A stretch of 5,460 nucleotides of DNA from a bacterium. GTDB lineage: Bacteria; JALSQH01. Of the stretch, positions 1 through 5,460 are shown piece after piece (the first letter of the stretch is position 1; each line of letters starts with the position of its first letter). A program made the translations under genes and the position numbers. The notes below the pieces were generated by a model, which made no database searches, was not told where the DNA came from, and saw only the letters and a list, made by a program, of their open reading frames with translations. The stretch covers positions 1-5,460 of the forward strand of contig JALSQH010000013.1 of the NCBI GenBank assembly GCA_026985515.1, written 5' to 3'.

Positions 1-1469
1 TGAAAAAACTGGTAATTGAAGTTACTCCAGTGGAAGTGAGGGGAGCTGTTATTGACGGGGATAGAGTGGTCGAGGTTCACAGTGAGAGAAAATATGAAAA
101 AGGGATTGTGGGGAATATTTATAAGGGAAAAATAAGCAGGGTAATCAAGGGCTTGAAAGCAGTATTTGTGGATATAGGGCTTGAAAAGGCTGCTTACATG
201 AATTTTGAAGACCTGAAAGATTCGTTTAAGCAGATTGCCTCTGTTGATGAAGGAGTGGATTTCAGAAAGGAATTTGACAGATTTTTGAAGAAAAAATTGA
301 AACCCGGTGACGAAGTCATAGTACAGGTAACCAGGGATGTGGTGGGGGATAAAGGTCCAAAGGTAACTACCAATATTGCTATACCCGGGAAGTATATTGT
401 GCTTCTACCATTTATGAACTTTATTGGTGTATCCAGGAAAATAGAGGATCAGAACAAAAGAAGAAAGTTAAAAGAACTTGTGTCAAAGGAGCTTCAGGGT
501 AAAAATATCGGCGTTATAATCAGAACATCTGCTGAAAATATTCCCGCAAGCTATCTTAAAAGAGAATTAAAATTTTTACTATCTCTTTTAAAAAAGATTG
601 AAGTGAGGATGAATGAATCTGCTCCGAGGATACTTTACCAGGATATTCCTCTGAGTTTGAAACTTGTCAGAGATTATCTGGACGAAGATTTAAGCAAAAT
701 CTATGTTGATGACAGGGAAGAATACAGAAAAATAAAAGATATAATAAAAGTTCTGGCACCCTCCCGCTCAAAAGATGTGGTGTTTTATTCAAAGGGTCCT
801 GTTTTTTCTGCATTTGGTTTGAGGGATATTTATGATAGAGTTATGAGAAATGTGATCTGGTTACCATCGGGAGGGTACATAGTTATTCAGGAAACTGAGG
901 CACTTACTTCCATTGATGTGAATTCAGGAAAATTTACTCCGGAGGGTGACCCGGAAGAGATGTTTCTCAAGATAAACAGGGAAGCCGCTGAAGAAATTGC
1001 TCATCAGCTGAGATTAAGAGATGTGGGCGGCATTATTATTGTTGATTTTGTCAACATGAGAAGGAGGAAAAACAGACAGATTCTTTACGAATTCTTCAGG
1101 GCCAGGTTGCTCGAAGATCAGGGTAAACCAGAGATTGAAAGGATATCACGCCTGGGACTTGTTGAAATGACAAGGAAAAAGGAAGGAAAAAGTCTGGCAT
1201 CATATATTTCTATAAAATGTCCCTACTGTGATGGAAGAGGTTACATAAAGTCTCCTGATACAATTGTGGGAGAAATATACAGAGACTTGAAAGAGTTATT
1301 TCCTGACAGAGGATGTAGAGGTCAGAGTGTGAAGGTTAGAGTACATCCAGAAGTGTTTAATACTGTAAACGAAAAATACAGTGGAATTTTCAGTGAAATC
1401 TGCAGAGACATAAGTTTTGTGAGAGATGAAAATTTACACATGGAGAAATTTTTAATAGAATTTAAGTGA
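1..1469 (+). CDS. rng: Ribonuclease E/G family endoribonuclease (RNase G-like), first base of start codon outside window
   Basis: Cytoplasmic Mg-dependent endoribonuclease expected to cut single-stranded AU-rich RNA during rRNA maturation and mRNA decay. A GTG at 30 lies in frame, but the frame is open to the window edge and begins TG-AAA-AAA-CTG, reading KKLVIEVTPVEVR, the usual N-terminus of the family. The true start is therefore almost certainly an ATG whose A lies just before base 1, giving 489 residues, the length of E. coli RNase G and without the long RNase E scaffold tail. Visible in order: S1-type RNA-binding region from about residue 35 (GIVGNIYKGKISRV, VFVDIGLEKAA); catalytic metal aspartates D306 (TSIDVNSGKFT) and D349 (IIIVDFVNMR), 43 residues apart as in E. 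coli; GLVEMTRKK; and the Zn-link cysteines C407 and C410 in CPYCDGRG. All key residues are intact. It is followed after 11 bp by a receiver-like gene, probably in one operon. The promoter lies upstream, out of view. Confidence 0.96.
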   Translation, partial: KKLVIEVTPVEVRGAVIDGDRVVEVHSERKYEKGIVGNIYKGKISRVIKGLKAVFVDIGLEKAAYMNFEDLKDSFKQIASVDEGVDFRKEFDRFLKKKLKPGDEVIVQVTRDVVGDKGPKVTTNIAIPGKYIVLLPFMNFIGVSRKIEDQNKRRKLKELVSKELQGKNIGVIIRTSAENIPASYLKRELKFLLSLLKKIEVRMNESAPRILYQDIPLSLKLVRDYLDEDLSKIYVDDREEYRKIKDIIKVLAPSRSKDVVFYSKGPVFSAFGLRDIYDRVMRNVIWLPSGGYIVIQETEALTSIDVNSGKFTPEGDPEEMFLKINREAAEEIAHQLRLRDVGGIIIVDFVNMRRRKNRQILYEFFRARLLEDQGKPEIERISRLGLVEMTRKKEGKSLASYISIKCPYCDGRGYIKSPDTIVGEIYRDLKELFPDRGCRGQSVKVRVHPEVFNTVNEKYSGIFSEICRDISFVRDENLHMEKFLIEFK

Positions 1470-1470
1470 G

Positions 1471-1476
1471 AGGAGG
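1471..1476 (+). promoter_or_regulatory. Shine-Dalgarno site AGGAGG of the receiver-like gene
   Basis: A consensus AGGAGG sits two bases after the rng stop codon and four bases before the ATG at 1481. It decides the start of the downstream gene: an in-frame GTG at 1466 overlapping the rng stop lies upstream of the SD and would not be served by it. Confidence 0.8.
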
Positions 1477-1480
1477 TATT

Positions 1481-1870
1481 ATGAAGATTGCCCTTATTAC
1501 TACAGATGCGGAGATGATTGACAGGGTTAAAAAGGTTGCAGATAGGTTTGAAGGGGTGGAAGTAAGAGTTTTTAACTCTCTTGAGGAATTTTTGAGTCCT
1601 TTCAGTAACATTTACCGCTTAATTTTGATTGACTCTATCTGGGGGAGGGATAAAACGCTCTCAATGATAGAGAGAGTTGCCAGATTGAATCCAGATGGAT
1701 GGTTGATTGCCCTTTCTCCGAATGTACTTCACACTTATGATTATACAGACGCAGGGGCCAAAATAACGATTTTGAGAAACAGTATGGATCTCCTTGAGAG
1801 TATTATTGAGGGGATAGTTAATCCCAGGACACCAGAGGAGGTTGAGAAGAAGTACGGGTATGAAGAATGA
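1481..1870 (+). CDS. Small receiver-like protein (degenerate response-regulator receiver fold), function unknown
   Basis: 129 residues, starting at ATG 1481 behind a strong SD. The pattern suggests a stand-alone CheY/receiver-type alpha/beta fold. Beta-1 is KIALITTDAE with D9 (one acid where a normal receiver has two). Beta-3 is LILIDSIWG with D51 at the phospho-acceptor position. Beta-4 is LIALSPN with S79 at the Thr/Ser switch position. Then comes the typical DAGA turn at 90-93. The conserved Lys near the end of beta-5 appears replaced by R99 (KITILRNS). The protein ends about 20 residues after the last helix, with no output domain. The missing Lys and reduced acidic pocket point to an atypical or pseudo-receiver, perhaps a protein-interaction module rather than a phospho-switch. 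It follows rng at 11 bp, so co-transcription is likely. The fold is an inference from motifs; other Rossmann-like folds are possible. Confidence 0.85.
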   Translation: MKIALITTDAEMIDRVKKVADRFEGVEVRVFNSLEEFLSPFSNIYRLILIDSIWGRDKTLSMIERVARLNPDGWLIALSPNVLHTYDYTDAGAKITILRNSMDLLESIIEGIVNPRTPEEVEKKYGYEE

Positions 1871-2000
1871 AATGATTGCTTTTCAGGGGTAAAGTTGAGA
1901 TGCGGAGGTCCTTTGTTTCATATGCAACCCAACTGGGCTTGATATGTTCCGGGTTCCTCTCTGCCTGAGATCCCCCTTCACAGGAAGATTGTGAATTGCT
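1871..2000. other. Intergenic region after the rng operon, no gene seen
   Basis: I find no convincing ORF, tRNA or known riboswitch core here. Two hairpins are visible. At 1919-1946 CATAT pairs with ATATG, with an inner CCC-AACT-GGG and an imperfect middle. At 1977-1995 TTCACA and TGTGAA surround a 7-base loop. Neither is followed by a T tract, so neither is a convincing terminator. Transcription from rng may continue into the repeat array that starts at 2001. Confidence 0.5.
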
Positions 2001-2227
2001 GCCCCGCAGGTTTGTTCAATTTCCCCCCTTTTCCGACCTTCAGTCCCTCCGTTAAGTGTGACTCCGTGGAGGTGAGTTCACTTTAGTAAACCACTTTCAC
2101 AGCCGACCCGATGGGAGGCTCCGCAAAAAGGATGTCTTCCTCTGCGGGCATTCCACGATTGCTCCGCCTTTATCCCATCGTGTCTGTCTCCGTCACAGAA
2201 CCACTCCGGGACAGGAGGTCTCTATCC
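2001..2227. repeat. Tandem repeat unit, copy 1 (227 bp)
   Basis: First full copy of a ~225-bp unit beginning GCCCCGCAGGTTTG. Aligned by eye with copy 2 it differs by about 13 substitutions and two single-base indels (about 93% identity). The block 2109-2214 is identical to 2334-2439 over 106 bp. Differences cluster at 2069-2108 and at the 3' end. Internal inverted repeats include CGATGGGA (2109-2116) with TCCCATCG (2173-2180), CCGCA (2121-2125) with TGCGG (2143-2147), and the competing CCCGCAG (2003-2009) with CTGCGGG (2142-2148). Orientation and function are unknown. Confidence 0.93.
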
Positions 2228-2272
2228 GCCCCGCAGGTTTGTTCAATTCCCCCCTTTCCGACCTTCTGTCCC
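2208..2272 (+). repeat. Inverted repeat across the copy 1 / copy 2 junction
   Basis: GGGACAGGAGGTC (2208-2220) faces GACCTTCTGTCCC (2260-2272). The arms are complementary over 13 positions with a single mismatch that is a G-U wobble in + strand RNA. The loop is 39 bases and holds the start of copy 2. The equivalent pair at the next junction is perfect. Confidence 0.65.
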
Positions 2273-2452
2273 TCCGTTAAGTGTGACTCCGTGGCAGTGG
2301 CTTCACTTGAATAAACCACTTTCCCAGCCGACTCGATGGGAGGCTCCGCAAAAAGGATGTCTTCCTCTGCGGGCATTCCACGATTGCTCCGCCTTTATCC
2401 CATCGTGTCTGTCTCCGTCACAGAACCACTCCGGGACAGAAGGTCTCCACCT
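2228..2452. repeat. Tandem repeat unit, copy 2 (225 bp)
   Basis: Second full copy, directly abutting copy 1. By hand count the span 2231-2460 is about 56% G+C, against roughly 33-42% in two 60-base samples from the rng and lipoprotein genes. The same inverted repeats are kept: CGATGGGA at 2334-2341 and TCCCATCG at 2398-2405, plus CCGCA/TGCGG inside them. Short ORFs are open on both strands, but the reading frames are broken between copies by indels, so I do not call a protein here. Confidence 0.93.
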
Positions 2453-2505
2453 GCCCAGAAGGTTATTCACTTTCCCCCTTTCCGACCTTCTGTCCCTCCG
2501 TTTTT
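2433..2505 (+). terminator. 13-bp perfect inverted repeat plus T5, terminator-like end of the array
   Basis: GGGACAGAAGGTC (2433-2445) and GACCTTCTGTCCC (2484-2496) are perfectly complementary. Four bases later TTTTT occurs at 2501-2505. The 38-base loop is much longer than in a usual intrinsic terminator, so efficiency is uncertain. The same stem without the T run recurs at the previous copy junction, so it belongs to the repeat. As a terminator it would separate the rng operon and repeat transcript from the lipoprotein gene. Confidence 0.4.
2453..2502. repeat. Truncated third copy of the repeat unit
   Basis: About 50 bp matching the head of the unit. It diverges in the first 20 bases, then TTTCCGACCTTCTGTCCC and the following CTCCGTT are identical to copy 2. 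After the match the sequence changes to a T run and unrelated AT-richer DNA. The 10-mer TCCCATCGTG from the middle of the unit occurs once more at 2538-2547, which suggests an internally deleted remnant rather than clean truncation. Confidence 0.75.
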
Positions 2506-2596
2506 ACTCTTGCAGATATAACTCCAGGGAATATGGCTCCCATCGTGATTGAACCAGCATTTATCCCGCTATCTATCTGGTATTTAAGTATTTTTC
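2503..2596. other. Spacer between repeat array and lipoprotein promoter, no gene seen
   Basis: AT content rises again after 2503. Apart from the repeated TCCCATCGTG 10-mer at 2538-2547 and a small GGGA/TCCC inverted repeat (2527-2530 with 2538-2541), I see nothing supportable here. Confidence 0.4.
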
Positions 2597-2624
2597 TTGA
2601 CTTGTGGGATTTTAGTGCTACACT
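2597..2624 (+). promoter_or_regulatory. Sigma70-type promoter of the lipoprotein gene
   Basis: The -35 is TTGACT (2597-2602, five of six to consensus). A 16-bp spacer ends in TGC, forming an extended -10. The -10 is TACACT (2619-2624, four of six). Transcription would start near 2629-2632, leaving a leader of roughly 77-80 nucleotides before the ATG at 2709. Confidence 0.6.
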
Positions 2625-2649
2625 TTAGATAGTAAGAGAGAGAAGGATG

Positions 2650-2712
2650 ATGGAAATGAAAAGTGTTAAATTTCAATTGCTATCTTCCTTTAAAGGAGGA
2701 GCACAACAATGA
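2650..2712 (+). CDS. Putative leader peptide ORF of 18-21 codons, coupled to the lipoprotein gene
   Basis: A tiny ORF lies wholly in the predicted 5' leader. In-frame ATGs occur at 2647, 2650 and 2656, and the stop TGA at 2710-2712 overlaps the lipoprotein ATG as ATGA. A purine-rich GAGAGAGAAGGA (2636-2647) could serve as SD and is best spaced for the ATG at 2656. From that start the peptide has 18 residues, beginning MKSVKFQLLSSF. It matches nothing I recognise. Its codons run straight through the hairpin that covers the lipoprotein SD, so its translation could open that hairpin. A frame this short can occur by chance; the ATGA overlap and SD-like tract are the only support. Confidence 0.4.
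   Translation: MEMKSVKFQLLSSFKGGAQQ
2683..2700 (+). promoter_or_regulatory. Hairpin sequestering the lipoprotein Shine-Dalgarno site
   Basis: TCTTCCT (2683-2689), loop TTAA, AGGAGGA (2694-2700). Seven consecutive pairs form in RNA, one of them U-G, and the 3' arm is the entire SD (AGGAGG 2694-2699, nine bases before the ATG at 2709). The core TCCTTTAAAGGA (2686-2697) is a perfect palindrome. In free mRNA the SD would be paired. Opening could be thermal or by a ribosome translating the leader ORF. Some SD sites form such stems by chance. Confidence 0.55.
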
Positions 2713-4730
2713 AGAAAATGATGAAAATCAGTAAATTCTTAGCATTAACTTTTGCATTATCTCTTTTCCTTTTCTCCTGTCAGCATAAGGAGAATAATTC
2801 TTCTTCTCCCTCTCCCTCCTTTTCCCCCATGTCCTTCAGTCTCTCCTATGCTGGGTGGGGGAAGCTGGATATGGAGAAGAGTCTCAACGATGGTTTTGCA
2901 GTTTATGGTTGCAGCAGTGTGAGGTTAAAAGATGTGAAGGTTGCCTCGGTGAATTATGATGGGGAGCCAGATTTAGAGTTTTTTGGAGCGGTGGGAGGTA
3001 TGGGTGAGATTGATATTGAGGGAGATAGCTACATCTCGGGGGATCTTGTTTATCCACCCGGAGGTACTTTTTCAGTTTCTTCTGAAACTGAAGTTAAGGG
3101 ATTTAAGTATGCCTGGGGAGTGAGTGAATGTCCCTGGTGGAGTTACGAGAGTGCGAACGACTGGAATTTAGCCAGTACCTATCCATCAGTTTTAACGGTT
3201 TCCAGTAAAGTGACTCTTGAAGCAGGAGGATACAGATTCAGGTTGCTGGATATAGAGGGAGGAGGGGAGCTGTATGGAAGGGATGTCAGTATTGTTGCTG
3301 AGAGGGTTGTTGTAAATGGTGGGAAACTGGTTATAGGGAGGGGTCTCCTGATTTCGGAGAATTTTGAAGTTAATTCTGGAGAAGTATCAGGCATAATATT
3401 TACAGATATTTTCTCGGGGAGGGATGTTGTTCTGAAGGGGAAAATTTCTGCAGAGAGTGTTTTAATTGACAAAGGGCAGGTGTTTTACAATGGAGATATT
3501 ATATGCCGTGAAAATATATGTCAGATTCCCTACAGCCTGGAAGTTAGTGGTGGAGTTGTAAGGAAAGGATTTCTGAAAATTACAACAAATTACTTCTCCA
3601 CTTTTACGCGGGTGAAACTTTCTTATTTTAAAGATCCAAAAACACGCTGGCCGTGGTGGGAGAATTTTGAAAAAAATAGATACCTGCCAGTGGGAACAAT
3701 TGATAAGAAGGATGGCCTTAGCTATTTACTGCAACTTGCCCTGGTAATGAAGAAACTCGGGTATTGTCTGAGGTGGATCCGGCTTAGCTGGTCCTGTTGT
3801 GGTTATCCGGAGTGGACGCCTTCGGTAAGCAACAGAAAACCCGGCTTATTTTATCTTACAAGATTACTGAGGGAGGTGGGTAGGAAGGGAGAAAAAGAGG
3901 GGAAATTGTTACCGTTTGTAGTGGCAGGTATGGGAGATGCTTCATATGTAGATCTTACCAGAGTGTTCCAGTGGAATGAATATCAAAGTTATCTTACTAC
4001 TGAGATACCCCTTTATAGAGGTCTCTCTGAGGATGGTTATGTTATAGATTTTTCTAAAGTATTCCGTGGCACTGAGTATCAAAATTACCTTAATTATATT
4101 ACTGAGGTATCCGGTATAGATAATCCTGATGCTCTGCCTGCTGAGTGGAAAAGCTATGCTGAATGGGTGTCCAGCAGTTGCAGGTCAAGTGAGTTTGTAC
4201 CCCGTTCAGTTACTGATTCTATTGGGAAAAGCGGAATGTATGAAATAGCAAATAATATATGCTGGAAAGGTTGGGCATGTTGTGGTGATGATAAGCCGCT
4301 TCCTGTTTCTGAAGTTACTCCTGTGTTAATAGGGCATTTTCTTACAGACAATAAAACTTACGCCGATGATCTGAAAGTGCAACTTTCTTCCATTCTGACT
4401 GAAAATGGTTTTATCAATGAAGATTATTGCCCTTATTACCCTTCGTCCGGAGAAGATTGTGAGATAGTGAAGAGCGGGTGGCTGACTGGGGAGAAGTCAC
4501 CCATATTCTTGCATTTTTATTCGATAAGTAATTCGTGGCATTATCTGGATAGAGATTTTCTGCAGGACATTCAGAATGTAAAGAAAGTCTTTGAAGATAT
4601 TTCGAGATACATAAAAGAGACTGGTCCAGCAGAAGTTACAGGTAGTGTCACAGTGGAGCATGGTGTTCAGGTAGGAGAGTGTTGTGAAGATTGTATAAGA
4701 CTTGATTACCAAAAATCAACAATTCCTTAG
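2709..4730 (+). CDS. Large Cys-rich predicted lipoprotein of unknown function, beta-rich N-terminal half
   Basis: 673 residues, ATG start nine bases after AGGAGG. The N-terminus is a type II signal peptide: MKKMMKISK, a hydrophobic stretch at 10-23, then LFSC with C24 as the likely lipidated Cys, so it is exported and membrane-anchored. A Ser/Pro/Asn-rich linker spans about 29-44. Residues about 45-285 are short hydrophobic strands alternating with Gly/Asp turns (for example GEIDIEGDSYISGDLVYPPGG), resembling a beta-solenoid or bactofilin-like scaffold. Residues about 290-673 are a different, Trp/Tyr/Cys-rich region with a duplicated motif at 414-429 and 446-461. Seventeen Cys occur in all, including pairs C363-C364, C524-C525 and C658-C659, so disulfides or metal binding are possible. 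No catalytic signature is recognised. It has its own promoter, and no functional partner is evident from its neighbours. A surface or envelope role is inference only. Confidence 0.9.
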   Translation: MKKMMKISKFLALTFALSLFLFSCQHKENNSSSPSPSFSPMSFSLSYAGWGKLDMEKSLNDGFAVYGCSSVRLKDVKVASVNYDGEPDLEFFGAVGGMGEIDIEGDSYISGDLVYPPGGTFSVSSETEVKGFKYAWGVSECPWWSYESANDWNLASTYPSVLTVSSKVTLEAGGYRFRLLDIEGGGELYGRDVSIVAERVVVNGGKLVIGRGLLISENFEVNSGEVSGIIFTDIFSGRDVVLKGKISAESVLIDKGQVFYNGDIICRENICQIPYSLEVSGGVVRKGFLKITTNYFSTFTRVKLSYFKDPKTRWPWWENFEKNRYLPVGTIDKKDGLSYLLQLALVMKKLGYCLRWIRLSWSCCGYPEWTPSVSNRKPGLFYLTRLLREVGRKGEKEGKLLPFVVAGMGDASYVDLTRVFQWNEYQSYLTTEIPLYRGLSEDGYVIDFSKVFRGTEYQNYLNYITEVSGIDNPDALPAEWKSYAEWVSSSCRSSEFVPRSVTDSIGKSGMYEIANNICWKGWACCGDDKPLPVSEVTPVLIGHFLTDNKTYADDLKVQLSSILTENGFINEDYCPYYPSSGEDCEIVKSGWLTGEKSPIFLHFYSISNSWHYLDRDFLQDIQNVKKVFEDISRYIKETGPAEVTGSVTVEHGVQVGECCEDCIRLDYQKSTIP

Positions 4731-4744
4731 ATGGTAATATCTAA
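4727..4744 (+). other. Small AT-rich hairpin at the lipoprotein stop codon
   Basis: TTAGAT (4727-4732, containing the TAG stop) and ATCTAA (4739-4744) form a 6-bp stem with loop GGTAAT. It is AT-rich and has no T tract directly after it, so it would be at best a weak terminator. A T/C-rich run starts only at 4767. Confidence 0.25.
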
Positions 4745-4789
4745 AGTGACATCTGTAACAATCGCATTCTTTTCCTTTTCCCCTCCCTC

Positions 4790-4798
4790 TGCTATAAT
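4790..4798 (+). promoter_or_regulatory. Extended -10 promoter directing a leaderless transcript
   Basis: TGCTATAAT is a perfect extended -10 (TG at 4790-4791, TATAAT at 4793-4798). Six bases (ATACCC) separate it from the ATG at 4805, so the expected transcription start is the A of the start codon. No SD-like sequence lies before that ATG. No good -35 is seen: the region upstream, 4767-4790, is an unbroken run of 24 pyrimidines. Extended -10 promoters can work without a -35. Confidence 0.75.
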
Positions 4799-4804
4799 AT
4801 ACCC

Positions 4805-5460
4805 ATGAAGAAGATCCCCTATGGAGTAGCCAATTACTGGAAGTTAAGGAAGCAGAATTTTTATTTTGTTGATAAGACTCATTTCATACCCAAAATAGAA
4901 GACCTGGGTAGCCAGTATCTCTTCTTTCTCCGTCCCCGCAGGTTTGGTAAATCCCTCTTTCTCTCCATTTTAGAGCATTACTACGACATCAGGATGGAGG
5001 AGCATTTTGAGGATTTATTTGGAGATACCTACATAGGTAGGAATCCCACGCCTCTGAGGAACAGCTTTGCAGTGCTGAAGTTTAATTTTTCAGGGATACC
5101 TGTACATGGGGATCTGAGGGAGACGGAGCATTCCTTTAACAGGAGTGTTAAGAGGGATGTGGCGAGTTTTTTTGTGAGATACAGTGAGATTTATCCTGAT
5201 CTGGAAAAGGTGAAAGACATTGTACTGAGTGAAGAATTTGCAGGAGACATAATGGACAATCTCATCAAGGTGCTGGCGGACATAGGTGTGAGTTACTACC
5301 TTCTTATAGATGAGTATGACAATTTTGCCAATAACATTCTGATGCAGCATGGAAGGTTAAATTACAGGGATGTAACCCATGCGGGGGGATTTTTGAGGAG
5401 TTTCTTTGCAGTGATAAAGAATGGAACAGAGAACAGGGTCATAGAGAGGATGTTTGTGAC
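4805..5460 (+). CDS. AAA-ATPase-like protein (PF09820 family), 3' end outside window
   Basis: First 218 residues of a protein that continues past the window. The N-terminus KKIPYGVANYWKLRKQNFYFVDKT matches the usual opening of the AAA-ATPase-like family, which fixes the ATG at 4805 as the start. The P-loop variant of this family is at 43-51 (RPRRFGKSL, with K49 and S50 for phosphate and Mg binding). Walker B is at 166-174 (LLIDEYDNF, D169/E170). In known members a PD-(D/E)XK nuclease-like domain (PF08011) usually follows near the C-terminus; that part is not visible here. The biological role is not settled; members are often multicopy in a genome, and a mobile or defence-linked role has been suspected. 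No frameshift or stop is present in the visible part. It is the only gene here without an SD and seems to be expressed from its own leaderless promoter, 74 bp after the lipoprotein stop. Confidence 0.92.
   Translation, partial: MKKIPYGVANYWKLRKQNFYFVDKTHFIPKIEDLGSQYLFFLRPRRFGKSLFLSILEHYYDIRMEEHFEDLFGDTYIGRNPTPLRNSFAVLKFNFSGIPVHGDLRETEHSFNRSVKRDVASFFVRYSEIYPDLEKVKDIVLSEEFAGDIMDNLIKVLADIGVSYYLLIDEYDNFANNILMQHGRLNYRDVTHAGGFLRSFFAVIKNGTENRVIERMFV

Follow-up and report, generated by a model that had tools for sequence, protein, structure and literature searches.

Genomic context and organization of the array

The window, meaning the whole 5,460-nt stretch of DNA analyzed (contig JALSQH010000013.1, positions 1 to 5,460), contains a GC-rich tandem array with an RNase E/G gene to its 5′ side and a lipoprotein gene to its 3′ side. 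The spacer from a 129-aa gene to the left edge of the element (1871-1985) has a G+C content of 47% and is unrepeated elsewhere in the genome. The features are as follows; C205 is another contig of the same genome (G000), and C205b is one of two copies on it.

1986..2004, + strand: leader (L), the left edge of the element (AAGATTGTGAATTGCTGCC), kin to the left edges of six other loci; the alignment with C205b starts at ~1985
2005..2053, + strand: R1, the first ~49-bp repeat, C/T-rich and ending in GACCTTCAGTCCCTCCGTT
2054..2229, + strand: S1, the first ~176-bp structured segment, of the first-unit type GTGAGTTCA
2109..2214, unstranded: 106-bp core, the same in both units (again at 2334-2439) and the most conserved part of the family by column conservation and a regional test
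2230..2278, + strand: R2, ~49 bp
2260..2272, + strand: 5′ arm of the stem that closes unit 2 (GACCTTCTGTCCC), an inverted repeat in the predicted fold
2279..2453, + strand: S2, the second structured segment, of the second-unit type GTGGCTTCA
2433..2445, + strand: 3′ arm of the stem that closes unit 2 (GGGACAGAAGGTC), with an alternative pairing with R3 at 2484-2496
2454..2502, + strand: R3, the ~49-bp R that closes the array
2503..2600, + strand: tail, 98 bp 3′ of R3, essentially identical to ~4536-4633 of G000:C205, where it follows a single R
2597..2624, + strand: promoter-like site TTGACT-16-TACACT in the gap between the array and the lipoprotein gene, with a near-identical form at C205
2709..4730, + strand: 673-aa lipoprotein gene with no assigned function; a paralogue lies behind the single R at C205 (37% over 289 aa)

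TRF called a tandem repeat at 2001-2502 with a period of 225, 2.2 copies, and 92% matches, exactly the bounds given in an earlier sequence-only reading of this DNA. That reading had described two full copies, about 93% identical and sharing a 106-bp perfect core, plus a truncated third. An ungapped comparison of 2024-2239 with 2249-2464 (216 bp) gave 92.6% identity, and the longest perfect run between the two full units was indeed 106 bp (2109-2214 = 2334-2439); the repeat was thus confirmed, but its layout is better described as R-S-R-S-R, with an R of ~49 bp alternating with an S of ~176 bp. The G+C content of the array was 55.4%, close to the ~56% first estimated, whereas the neighboring genes spanned 37.7-41.9%, higher at the low end than the proposed 33-42% (genome average 40.6%, over 1.05 Mb). 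Inverted repeats, also anticipated, were found as the pair GACCTTCTGTCCC/GGGACAGAAGGTC, exact over 13 bp.

Because units at other loci are spaced by 224 and 226 as well as 225 bp, and the open reading frames (ORFs) inside the unit matched no Pfam family, the unit was considered non-coding, in agreement with the earlier observation that frames are not kept between copies, and a coding sequence was rejected. A search for tRNAs found none. A known RNA family, a match to which would have counted against the sequence-only reading, was likewise rejected, as cmscan against Rfam at E ≤ 10 was empty over the array.

Distribution within the home genome

The home genome assembly comprises 2.36 Mb in 268 contigs. 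In a BLAST search of it, the array DNA matched 11 places on 10 contigs at 90-93% identity, with E-values down to 1e-170, far beyond chance, so that a neutral duplication confined to this locus, the null outcome considered earlier, is excluded as far as "local" is concerned. Of the two options offered by that reading, structured RNA or mobile repeat, the second stands in the sense of a dispersed family, which occupies about ten intergenic sites in one genome and has a common leader. All copies lie between predicted ORFs; one array abuts a truncated AAA-ATPase-like gene. Two units, or nearly two, are present in the window and at C141; one unit and a partial second at C205a and C71; one unit at C45, C68, and C243; and only a single-R relic at C222 and C205b. 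Unit numbers at C141, C243, C68, C155, and C204 are minimum values, as these five of the ten copy-bearing contigs end inside the array. The right ends vary from locus to locus, and the second unit at C71 has diverged. No further diverged copies were seen in the 1.05 Mb of the home genome that was read.

These contig breaks raise the alternative that copy number or junctions were created by short-read assembly. This is very improbable, since five contigs, the window included, carry unique sequence on both sides of their copies, and the units differ by 5-14% over their 5′ part and therefore do not represent one sequence multiplied by the assembler.

Other repeats are present in the same genome. 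A second dispersed family of ~160 bp is AT-rich, 69-92% identical, and contains hairpins (CCCAAAATCTC..GAGATTTTGGG and CCGTCACCCTTTAGGTGACGG); it was located at L114:18596-18757 (G000:C7), L015:4547-4708, L118:15399-15559, and L019:3648-3806, and on L196, L173, L116, and L170. Two repeats of ~120 bp, many at contig ends, were found at L151:1-121 and 4534-4654 and on L168 and L143, and at L155:4356-4479 and L017:320-444 and on L200 and L178; one of them lies near the C45 array beside an ORF that, by eye, looks like part of a transposase. They are probably insertion-sequence ends that break the assembly. A CRISPR array with 12 repeats (GTTTTCAGCCTAACTATGAGGGATTGAAAT) occupies L119:1152-1913 (G000:C12).

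Searches of other genomes, viruses, and plasmids

Beyond the home genome, a DNA search with the array returned no match in 58 other genomes, and a covariance-model search, the check proposed earlier for copies in relatives, returned none in 115; these sets include only one genome of the same family (80% complete), and close relatives are unsampled. Exact core patterns were absent from 84,980 species genomes, a collection from which the home genome may itself have been left out, and from viral contigs. Phages and plasmids contained no match to the array, and a phage or plasmid origin was rejected on these results together with those from viral contigs. Neither the RNase G gene nor the lipoprotein gene was found in the sole same-family genome, at its 80% completeness.

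Predicted secondary structure and folding constraint

When folded as RNA, the unit at 2257-2445 reached −74.6 kcal/mol on the + strand (MFE z −5.75) and −82.2 kcal/mol on the − strand (MFE z −4.83). In the predicted fold, a 13-bp closing stem pairs GACCTTCTGTCCC, which lies in R, with GGGACAGAAGGTC, which lies before the next R, and encloses a multibranched structure. The consensus fold of ten units has 52 pairs, with 98.6% of cells paired. None of the 52 pairs changed on both sides, i.e., there was no compensatory change, a comparison of low power given that the copies are only ~6% apart.

The substitutions that separate the copies spare this fold. On the + strand, 38 distinct substitutions had a mean cost of 0.09 kcal/mol versus 1.22 expected from random changes of the same type on the consensus fold (p about 1e-4), and on the − strand the corresponding values were 0.62 and 1.64 kcal/mol (38 substitutions, p 0.0009). 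After stratification by region, the effect persisted at p 0.010 (+) and 0.002 (−). These tests depend in part on the consensus from which the fold itself was drawn, and on copies that have a common history and are not independent. Variation was clustered: one segment was variable at 19 of its 47 positions (Fisher p 5e-5 versus the rest). One-sided changes mostly kept wobble pairing on the + strand. Substitution energies did not separate the two strands (p 0.35), and therefore the data point to a constraint on folding potential rather than demonstrating RNA.

Two alternatives bear on this pattern. A decaying family under no selection, the eroding remains of a single spread of some old sequence, foreign or duplicated, would account for the ragged right ends, the diverged second unit at C71, the solo R relics, and the lack of an autonomous partner; it is nevertheless quite unlikely, because variation is so uneven and because, even within regions, the changes avoid destabilizing the fold. 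A multicopy small-RNA gene family, in which each S would be transcribed into a functional RNA of ~185 nt, agrees with the very stable fold, the near-invariant core, and substitutions that spare the fold with mostly wobble-preserving one-sided changes on the + strand. We consider it unlikely: there is neither an Rfam match nor a compensatory pair, the folding constraint is about equal on both strands, a crude scan found no promoter-like or terminator-like site within the array, and copies are variably truncated or reduced to a solo R. Thus, the structured-RNA option of the earlier reading holds for strong folding and folding constraint but not for RNA as such, with no compensatory pair, strand preference, or Rfam match in its favor.

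Dispersal of the arrays

Units within one array are no more alike than units in different arrays (94.6 and 92.8% within, mean of 93.8% between). First units carry GTGAGTTCA, and second units carry GTAGCTTCA or GTGGCTTCA. In the 5′ part of the unit, divergence is 8.0% for units that hold the same position at different loci, 11.4% for units in other positions, and 12.1% for units of one array, and the true first/second labelling was the best among all 16 label swaps. A tree separated first from second units with one exception (C155) and moderate support (77/83). Because same-position units across loci are closest and are split in the tree, the arrays seem to have been copied as ready-made dimers.

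A leader of ~25 nt, with an end of the form ..GTGAATTGC..CTGCAGG, is common to seven loci but weakly conserved, and it is missing at C71 and C205a. Pairwise tests on the 50 nt left of R linked C13, C205b, C141, and C222 with one another, and C155 with C45 (several p ≤ 0.01). The possibility that left flanks are diverged S segments was rejected, their scores being at background; in the test of likeness to S, only the tail and the right flank of C71 reached p 0.04.

At C205b, a lone R with a related leader precedes a 98-bp stretch that is essentially identical to window positions 2503-2600; a near-identical promoter region and then the paralogous lipoprotein gene come next. Between the same edges, the window holds two S-R units and C205 none, forming a natural with/without pair, a difference of the kind expected from recombination between R repeats. 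That the tail is near-perfect in front of two old paralogues implies either recent exchange or strong selection at that site. At C205a, the first ~42 profile positions of an AAA-ATPase-like gene are joined to the array at a stretch that both contain, as microhomology recombination would predict. R resembles the AAA-ATPase gene at 83% over 30 bp (4923-4952); a common origin of the two was rejected, and the likeness was judged to be microhomology used at one junction (C205). Three of the eight genome matches to this AAA-ATPase-like family (PF09820) are on repeat-bearing contigs, namely window positions 4805-5460, G000:C204:6585-7262, and G000:C205:3426-3551, the last being the fragment fused to the array.

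Hallmarks of known movers were sought in the home genome. At six loci, whose true right ends are uncertain, no exact 9-bp inverted pair was found between the flanks, and a look-up of target-site duplications at six loci, again with uncertain element boundaries, gave one 8-bp direct pair at one locus only. The Y1 (RAYT) transposase, PF01797, had no home-genome match at E ≤ 0.001, whereas five control genomes matched, and no reverse transcriptase (PF00078) was found in the home genome. A REP partner was rejected, with no Y1 transposase and units arranged head-to-tail at 225 bp, as was a retron or group II intron RNA, with no PF00078 match and no Rfam match at the array. When the array was searched against the whole genome at the DNA level for a larger relative of the element, only the copies themselves were returned (the assembly has gaps). 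The element falls outside the definition of a MITE, with no terminal inverted repeats and no related autonomous element found in the genome.

Genes facing the arrays

Eleven genes have their 5′ end toward an array, and 7 of them were scored as signal-bearing, compared with 13 of 80 genes at other long gaps (p 0.002; p 0.009 without a doubtful DedA-like call, and 0.025 without one more), under a crude, post hoc rule and with loci that are not fully independent. Among the array-facing genes are the two lipoprotein genes and those for a CsgG/LamG protein and a PEBP-like protein, as well as genes for NUDIX and arginine decarboxylase proteins. The 673-aa lipoprotein (2709-4730) matched no Pfam family and had no relative among 58 other genomes; it has one paralogue in the home genome, at C205 (37% over 289 aa).

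This excess, and the essentially identical 98-bp tail and promoter before two paralogous lipoprotein genes, could indicate a cis-acting upstream element, either a DNA hairpin or a regulatory sequence, that adjusts downstream genes for exported proteins. Such a role is also unlikely as the main explanation, given the nature of the signal test, the copies that front NUDIX and arginine decarboxylase genes, the C45 copy between convergent ORFs, and a unit number that ranges from 0 to 2 before the paralogues.

Proposed origin of the family

From its dispersal, intergenic position, common leader, common predicted fold, kinship of same-position units, and absence from everything else searched, the array is probably a member of a lineage-specific, non-autonomous, folding-constrained family of dispersed intergenic repeats. 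The full element would read leader L - R - S1 - R′ - S2 - R ..., each S being enclosed by a 13-bp stem, in which the end of an R pairs with the sequence ahead of the following R, to give a multibranched fold. Blocks with at least two units may have reached several intergenic sites through ectopic recombination or through copying by a trans-acting enzyme, after which units would be gained or lost via recombination between the ~49-bp R repeats and the right ends would erode independently. The fold may be kept because the element relies on it, as a DNA hairpin or a transcript, to persist or to spread; a host role is possible but not needed. Counting against this reading are the failure to find a mover, the ragged right ends, the lack of compensatory changes, the partial dependence of the folding test on its own consensus, the weak leader, and the moderate support for the dimer split in the tree.

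A more far-reaching version is a long shot: a new type of mobile non-coding element, i.e., a leader-headed array of large multibranched hairpin units that would spread as preformed multimers with neither terminal inverted repeats nor a recognizable transposase, would prefer regions upstream of promoters of exported-protein genes, and would tune the downstream gene as recombination between R repeats changed its unit number. If array length does modulate the lipoprotein promoter, it would constitute a slow, recombination-driven switch in a poorly sampled lineage, and the with/without pair formed by the window and C205 makes an effect on expression directly testable.

Comparison with known repeat families

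The known system with the most similar layout is BrickBuilt (Porphyromonas gingivalis), a minisatellite carried within a MITE; it is species-specific, always intergenic, and present in ~19 copies, with tandem units between a leader and a tail, promoter activity in segments, a unit of 23 bp without spacers, and ends formed by small inverted repeats (PMC4596501). Both are species-specific, intergenic, and built of tandem units between a leader and a tail; however, the unit here is 225 bp with a multibranched predicted fold, and no terminal inverted repeat was found.

REP/BIME and REPIN sequences are palindromes of 20-40 bp in alternating orientation and high copy, tied to a Y1-type transposase. 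They resemble the present family as structured intergenic repeats, sometimes in series, but here the 225-bp units are head-to-tail at about ten loci, in a genome in which no Y1 transposase was found.

Nearest in kind are stem-loop-containing intergenic repeats, most of which are single dispersed units. They comprise 92 families, e.g., Bcr1 (Bacillus cereus group), ERIC, YPAL, and NEMIS, of ~100-200 bp, often species-limited and with structure that is sometimes strand-dependent (PMC2267715). The array family is likewise dispersed and intergenic with a common secondary structure, occupying 11 places, all intergenic, with a better-than-random fold (z −5.75/−4.83), whereas its units are in tandem around a common R and apparently spread as dimers. 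It is uncommon for large structured repeats in bacteria to move as tandem multimers. We conclude that the array represents a real new family of an already known general kind and, as it stands, adds one well-defined family to the structured intergenic repeats.
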